Of a stretch of 60,454 nt of DNA, positions 60,007-60,454 are shown one piece after another (within the stretch, counting starts at the first letter, position 1; each line of letters opens with the position of its first letter). Source of the stretch: Actinomycetota bacterium (GTDB taxonomy: Bacteria > Actinomycetota > Aquicultoria > Aquicultorales > Aquicultoraceae); assembly GCA_018333515.1 (NCBI GenBank), contig JAGXSZ010000012.1:1-60454 (forward strand), read 5' to 3'. The notes beneath the pieces are model-generated. The model was not told where the DNA came from, did no database searches, and saw nothing but the letters and a program-made list of their open reading frames with translations. Made by a program: the position numbers and the translations under genes.

Positions 60007-60090
60007 ATGACGTTAGAACTGAGGATGGGATACGAGCTGGTCGAGAGCCTCGCCGCCATAAAGGAACAAAACGGGAGATTGATCGTCTAA
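60007..60090 (+). pseudogene. Short frame interrupted by the OMEGA element
   Basis: ATG at 60007 opens MTLELRMGYELVESLAAIKE followed by QNGRLIV, then a stop TAA at 60088-60090 at the predicted left end of the OMEGA element. It reads like the start of a real protein cut by the insertion. No ribosome binding site is seen; TATTCT at 59992 would allow a leaderless start. Product unknown. Confidence 0.4.
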
Positions 60091-60375
60091 GTCAACCACC
60101 CCGCCCTAAAGGGCGGAGCTTGTGAAAGCAAGCTTAAGTTGACCAGGGAGAGTGAGATGTGAACTACATCGAACTCCGTTACCAACGGGTCGTTAAGACG
60201 CACCAGCGAATGCTTCCTCAGTTCGCTGCTCTGCAAGACCCGGATCATGCTGGCGAAAGGTAAAGCGCCGAAGGTTCGGGTCGCTGCTGACAAGCAGGAG
60301 CCGGTTGGTGACATTCCCGAGGGGAGACGCCTCGCAAGGGGCGCGTCACAGGGCTCGTAAGGGCTGAACAAAAGG
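60091..60375 (+). ncRNA. Omega-RNA (OMEGA/HEARO) scaffold of an IscB-type element
   Basis: About 285 bases directly upstream of the IscB-like gene. The 5' end folds as a multibranch: GTCAAC (60091-60096) with GTTGAC (60138-60143). This encloses CCGCCC-TAAA-GGGCGG (60101-60116) and AGCTTG/CAAGCT (60117-60134). Further stems are CCGTT/AACGG (60176-60188) and GCGAA/TTCGC (60206-60226). Position, length and the CCGCCCTAAAGGGCGG opening fit known IscB omega-RNAs (HEARO). In this class the guide is the sequence 5' of the scaffold, here about 60075-60090, derived from the flanking DNA at the insertion site. The 3' limit is approximate. Confidence 0.75.
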
Positions 60376-60383
60376 AGTTTTCG

Positions 60384-60454
60384 ATGGCAGTGTTTGTTTT
60401 GGATCGCAGAAAGAAGCCGCTGATGCCGTGCAGCGAGAAACGTGCTCGCCTGTT
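60384..60454 (+). CDS. iscB: IscB/IsrB RNA-guided nuclease, N-terminus only
   Basis: The first 23 codons of a gene that runs off the right edge. ATG at 60384 with AAAGGAG seven bases before. MAVFVLDRRKKPLMPCSEKR then ARL is the PLMP/RRXRR N-terminal domain of IscB, the transposon-encoded ancestor of Cas9. IscB has split RuvC and an HNH domain and cuts DNA guided by omega-RNA. IsrB has the same N-terminus but no HNH, so the two cannot be told apart from the visible part. The upstream structured RNA supports the call. Confidence 0.85.
   Translation, partial: MAVFVLDRRKKPLMPCSEKRARL

Follow-up and report, generated by a model that had tools for sequence, protein, structure and literature searches.

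IscB elements of a large HEARO-associated subfamily are inserted between the Shine-Dalgarno (SD) sequence of a host gene and its ATGA start codon. This is the rule for the wider subfamily around the element described here. IscB, a small RNA-guided nuclease, belongs to the family that gave rise to Cas9, and a docking rule would help to explain why its host elements persist. We give a probability of about 0.5 to the reading that a large IscB/HEARO subfamily specialises in docking between the ribosome-binding site and ATGA. The start codon would then be the target-adjacent motif (TAM) and the ribosome-binding site the guide, while the right end of the element would re-supply initiation, making insertion nearly harmless even before essential genes. 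The element that led to this rule is itself a normal member of the IscB family, and the start-codon rule is the part worth following.

The window, i.e. the whole stretch of DNA analysed, is contig C12 (60,454 bases) of a genome assembled in 40 contigs and 2.33 Mb. The left part of an IscB element, about 1.7 kb long in total, occupies the final 364 bases (Table 1). A first-pass annotation had described a structured RNA with a GTCAAC/GTTGAC stem and a CCGCCCTAAAGGGCGG hairpin leading into an ORF that starts MAVFVLDRRKKPLMPCSEKR, and had read this arrangement as that of an IscB nuclease. All of these parts are present, and the HEARO score and folding z-score place them beyond chance. The covariance model that the annotation had proposed, HEARO (Rfam RF02033), matched the window over its full length (model positions 1-211; 102.8 bits, E 4.5e-20, gathering score 83). 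A second copy of the element, at the left end of contig C33, scored 99.2 bits, also above the gathering score. The folding z-score of the omega-RNA was -4.1, and 0/200 shuffles were equally stable. GTCAAC pairs with GTTGAC as the closing stem in both the HEARO alignment and the fold. The 23 visible residues of the following ORF match positions 1-20 of the Pfam profile RRXRR (25.3 bits, cut-off 25) and positions 1-21 of NCBIfam guided_IscB, as expected of the proposed layout. Judged from sequence, this is very probably an OMEGA element of the HEARO/IscB kind, comprising an omega-RNA scaffold, iscB and a palindromic right end in about 1.7 kb, with no transposase of its own and with predicted activity.

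Table 1. Features of the IscB element and its left flank in the window.
Feature	Position	Strand	Basis or remark
ECF sigma-factor gene remnant, 28 codons with stop	60007..60090	+	native 3' end over the last ~18 codons
Native Shine-Dalgarno GGGAG of next gene	60073-60077	+	comparison with sister-species DNA
Predicted guide, about 16-20 nt directly 5' of omega-RNA scaffold	60071..60090	+	abuts HEARO model position 1
Omega-RNA (HEARO) scaffold	60091..60332	+	Rfam RF02033; 60091 is also the element left end (empty sites)
Closing stem, 5' arm GTCAAC	60091..60096	+	3' arm GTTGAC at 60138-60143; HEARO alignment, fold
Hairpin CCGCCCTAAAGGGCGG	60101..60116	+	sequence, fold; one base differs in second copy
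iscB Shine-Dalgarno AAGGAG	60372..60377	+	sequence
iscB, first 23 codons (RRXRR/PLMP N-terminus), ORF starting MAVFVLDRRKKPLMPCSEKR	60384..60454	+	Pfam RRXRR, NCBIfam guided_IscB; start codon ATG at 60384, gene cut by contig end

The genome carries two copies of the element, one at the right end of C12 and one at the left end of C33. They differ at a few bases, then share about 100 identical bases and end at the same base. The window contig breaks inside iscB because the genome has a second copy, which breaks at this same base, and the contig stop is an assembly break within a repeat. No contig overlapped the iscB break in the continuing direction among all 80 contig ends. The contigs of the assembly are at least 3171 bases long, and a short linking contig would therefore be absent. 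The missing iscB link is a contig below this floor of about 3 kb, not missing biology.

The far side of the break was recovered at the right end of contig C7, which encodes the IscB C-terminus (bases 77432 down to about 76760) and the right end of the element. The expected continuation of the ORF is thus found there, and it aligns with 470-aa relatives from immediately behind their HNH domain up to their final residue. This fragment, which contains the C-terminal RuvC-III part and the target-motif region, is 66-68% identical to full-length IscB relatives and matches guided_IscB positions 234-314 (E 1.8e-21, 75-78 bits). The curated NCBIfam cut-off of 175 bits applies to whole proteins, of which only fragments are assembled here; full-length relatives score 445-453. 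The right flank of the second copy is contig C28, which begins in comEC directly after its ATG.

The annotation had allowed for either IscB or IsrB. An IsrB, in which omega-RNA and RuvC parts occur without HNH and the enzyme is a nickase, is highly unlikely here. Its related omega-RNAs and NTGA/NTGG motifs (PMC9581776) would suit the element, and the HNH region falls inside the assembly gap, so that IscB is favoured rather than proved. However, the close full-length relatives are all 470-aa IscB proteins, with an HNH domain at 198-253 that is present in the two closest tested, and the visible C-terminal fragment opens with the final positions of HNH (K-KG). The size of the gap also argues for IscB. 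The assembled 364 + 673 bases, compared with 1702-1705 nt in the closest relatives, leave about 0.67 kb (RuvC-II, HNH), as needed for the missing ~224 residues.

The exact boundaries of the element are known because sister species carry both sites empty. Site 1, the junction of a sigma-factor and an anti-sigma-factor gene, is uninterrupted in three sister species of the same genus (GGGAGATTGAGCGTCTAA^ATGAACGAGATG), where a full sigma-factor gene ending in ...SLAAIKEQNGRLSV* directly precedes the anti-sigma gene. The occupied site reads GGGAGATTGATCGTCTAA|GTCAACC in the window and ...CGCGCAAACCG|ATGAACGGGATG in C7. Site 2, between comEA and comEC, is empty in one sister species (GAGATATCGGTCGA^ATGAAAAGG) and reads GAGATATCGGTCGA|GTCAACC when occupied; on its right, C28 starts within comEC, just past the ATG. 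In short form the empty sites are GTCTAA^ATGAACG and GTCGA^ATGAAAAG. The element is therefore exactly GTCAAC...AACCG, starting at 60091; bases 60075-60090, with which the range given in the first-pass annotation begins and which it had read as the likely guide, are flanking gene and thus guide. No target duplication occurs at site 1, the only site at which both junctions are seen. The ends are of IS200/IS605 type, with a right-end hairpin CTCGGCATGAATGCCGGGG, and both copies are followed directly on the right by the ATGA start codon of the next gene, an anti-sigma factor at site 1 and comEC at site 2.

The 5' flank, which is the predicted guide, together with ATGA reconstitutes the empty target at both sites. 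A guide drawn from the flanking gene and matching the uninterrupted allele had been proposed for the window copy, and the sister-species alleles bear this out. Neither target is intact in the element's own genome with 3 mismatches allowed. Sister species have the site 1 target with 1 mismatch and the site 2 target with 1-2 mismatches, in each case followed by ATGA. HEARO was found in no other of the 60 genomes searched (its own and 59 relatives). The two copies and their empty sites in sister species make a clean case, in a genus otherwise without the element among the genomes searched. At site 1 only about 18 native 3' codons of the upstream ECF sigma-factor gene are left, while the anti-sigma gene persists in shortened form (window 60007-60090; C7, locus L119). 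A DUF4349 gene, upstream of the sigma gene in sister species, is missing here; deletion or misassembly are both possible.

These comparisons also bear on whether the element is a decayed, immobile relic, that is, a HEARO RNA and a broken iscB left from an old insertion. No cognate TnpA was found, IS200-like TnpA occurs in the genome as broken copies, and the gap may hide frameshifts. Against this, the visible ~364 nt are almost the same in the two copies, which collapse in assembly. The reading frame is open at both recovered ends, the HEARO RNA keeps an intact fold, and neither insertion is present in sister species. Together these observations point to recent activity, and a relic is unlikely.

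ATGA or GTGA was reportedly given as the integration motif in the HEARO discovery paper of 2009. To examine the insertion sites more widely, 80 related loci were collected from public genomes and their right ends were anchored by the conserved palindrome, independently of ATGA. ATGA lies within 13 nt of the right end in 51/53 anchored loci, compared with a background of 7.9% for ATGA/GTGA in 16-nt windows. The ATG opens an ORF of at least 100 aa in 42/51 cases (background 31%), and about 18% of the relatives' ATGA sites start no such ORF. In ten cases the encoded protein aligns with a curated family from about residue 1 onward, and the right-end ATG is therefore the true start. These families are dapA, cobA, galE, alaS, smpB, moeB, homoserine dehydrogenase, an rRNA methyltransferase, a glycosyltransferase-like protein and L-serine ammonia-lyase. 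Among 18 plasmid-borne copies that had been annotated independently, an annotated gene starts exactly at the right end in 10; two of these 10 come from related plasmids and share one site.

The flanks were rejoined for 33 relatives with a HEARO start. An SD-like motif occurs in the 18 nt before ATGA in 24/35 sites (the 33 relatives and the two sites of this genome); 2000 shuffles gave a mean of 9.9 and a maximum of 17. SD motif and ORF occur together in 22/33, as opposed to 5.7% of 1087 background ATGA sites (P 4.5e-20), for sites that are not a random sample and elements that are not independent in element sequence, though their insertion sites differ.

Several individual loci deserve mention. 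In Marinobacter gelidimuriae (L183) the element stands immediately ahead of smpB and of the tmRNA gene that comes next, in a translation-rescue locus. In a Chroococcidiopsis plasmid (L233) ATGG replaces ATGA at the right end; it is the annotated start codon with GGAGG just before it, and may be compared with the NTGG motif of some IsrB. Vreelandella massiliensis (L171) has a broken right-end stem (GCGAGA vs TCCCGC) and no gene behind ATGA (ORF of 2 aa), being one of few loci for each. A search of a viral collection with a single protein gave 7 loci. Two large viral contigs from IMG/VR, of 100 and 155 kb (L215 and L218), encode IscB 55% identical to the query, and L215 has a HEARO match of 120 bits. 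IscB elements also ride on large phages.

Three arrangements of the right end were observed. In the first, the iscB reading frame extends across the right end and terminates on ATGA (TGA of ATGA, or TG|A), so that stop and start codons overlap. Followed through C7, the copy in the window belongs to this type. In the second, found in actinobacterial and some cyanobacterial copies, GGAGG lies within about 10 nt before the ATG. In the third, found in Proteobacterial, Nitrospirae and related copies, AGGAG is followed after 1-3 nt by the first arm of a 5-8 bp stem; the second arm finishes 7-11 nt upstream of the ATG, and the hairpins of the right end are looped out. The arms of this stem covary (GCGGGA/TCCCGC, GCGAGAA/TTCTCGC, GCGCATT/AATGCGC, GGGAAAC/GTTTCCC). 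A stem of at least 6 bp forms in 24/31 distinct arm pairs, whereas 1000 arm swaps yielded a mean of 14.1 and never exceeded 20. The pair probability of the stem is at least 0.75 in 15/19 loci tested. Conservation of iscB coding was considered as the cause of the conserved AGGAG but is not sufficient by itself, since iscB stops before AGGAG in several loci. We hypothesise that the right end re-supplies translation of the displaced gene. In the window's own copy the relay stem has 5 bp, lies 3.5 kcal/mol above the best fold and has a pair probability of 0.016; therefore only the stop-start overlap supports continued translation there.

Start-codon docking could instead reflect the survival of harmless insertions rather than targeting. 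Transposase and nuclease would need ATGA, intragenic insertions would be lost, and the right ends would be transposase-binding structures without a role in translation. We consider this a serious possibility, a little short of an even chance. IS200/IS605 ends carry hairpins that TnpA recognises as single-stranded DNA, and the right-end stems could equally serve such binding. The stem that would relay the SD belongs to a palindromic end of this type, and it is weak in the window's own copy. Survivorship does not readily account for the spacing of AGGAG, stem and ATG in most relatives, in some of which iscB has already stopped, nor for the covariation of the stem arms. GGAGG directly before the ATG in actinobacterial and cyanobacterial copies also speaks against it, as do the essential genes alaS and smpB directly behind an element.

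The mode of movement was approached through the transposase. The first-pass annotation had suggested a homing or peel-and-paste life style and a search for a TnpA of the IS200/IS605 family. No TnpA is present in the recovered ~1037 nt of the element or in its flanks, and the ~0.67 kb still missing corresponds to iscB. Elsewhere the genome does contain several Y1-transposase matches, including an IS200-like repeat whose copies are broken, and TnpA occurs somewhere in 21/23 genomes carrying related IscB elements. The element is not an autonomous member of IS200/IS605 and may be a non-autonomous one. HEARO genes are rarely beside TnpA (PMC9755519), and an element without its own TnpA fits this published rarity. 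We infer that the element is moved by a Y1 (TnpA) transposase supplied in trans, and peel-and-paste could only operate in this way. The IS200-like TnpA repeat was considered as a mobiliser and rejected, since it has a disrupted reading frame and ends unlike those of the IscB element. This repeat, in at least two copies, is split over contig ends C9R/C38L and C24L/C32R and has CCCCCGGCTCTGCCGGGGG-type ends. A multicopy group II intron is likewise found at contig ends (C14R, C36L and C38R), its maturase C-terminus and intron 3' end lying at different places.

In the mechanism that we propose, the omega-RNA would carry the 5' flank as guide, and IscB would recognise ATGA as the target-adjacent motif and cut the empty allele. 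Repair would then copy the element back or into relatives, while TnpA would move it in trans. The right end would keep the displaced gene translated by the iscB stop on ATGA, by its own GGAGG, or by AGGAG relayed through the short stem. An ATGA motif is plausible for the window IscB because its IsrB relatives have NTGA/NTGG motifs, as determined by assay (PMC9581776). Docking with a replacement ribosome-binding signal would explain how these elements land beside essential genes. If this is true, host tolerance is explained, insertion sites follow an exact rule and the natural function can be tested with simple reporters in laboratory strains. A partial literature search returned no paper linking the HEARO/IscB motif to downstream start codons or the guide to a ribosome-binding site, and no description of a ribosome-binding signal in the right end of an IscB element.

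The closest known systems are the HEARO RNA (RF02033)/IscB OMEGA systems (PMC9755519), for which guides from the flank are already known. The window element shares with them the omega-RNA fold and its position 5' of iscB, the RRXRR/PLMP N-terminus, the RuvC C-terminal part, the 5'-flank guide and the absence of an adjacent TnpA; in itself it shows no essential difference. The IsrB OMEGA nickase (PMC9581776) is alike in its large omega-RNA and in a target motif, NTGA/NTGG, close to the ATGA seen here. IsrB lacks HNH, whereas the visible C-terminus of the window protein and its relatives belong to the type of IscB that carries HNH. IS200/IS605 elements with TnpB also have palindromic ends, no target duplication, a TAM that equals the insertion motif and a guide from the flank. 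They differ in the nuclease, and the window element has its guide RNA 5' of the nuclease gene and no TnpA. IStrons (PMC4227781) are similar in being mobile elements that make their own insertion harmless to the host gene. However, IStrons use self-splicing introns and lie mostly inside genes (58%) (PMC4227781), whereas the elements described here are proposed to land before the start codon and to re-supply initiation.
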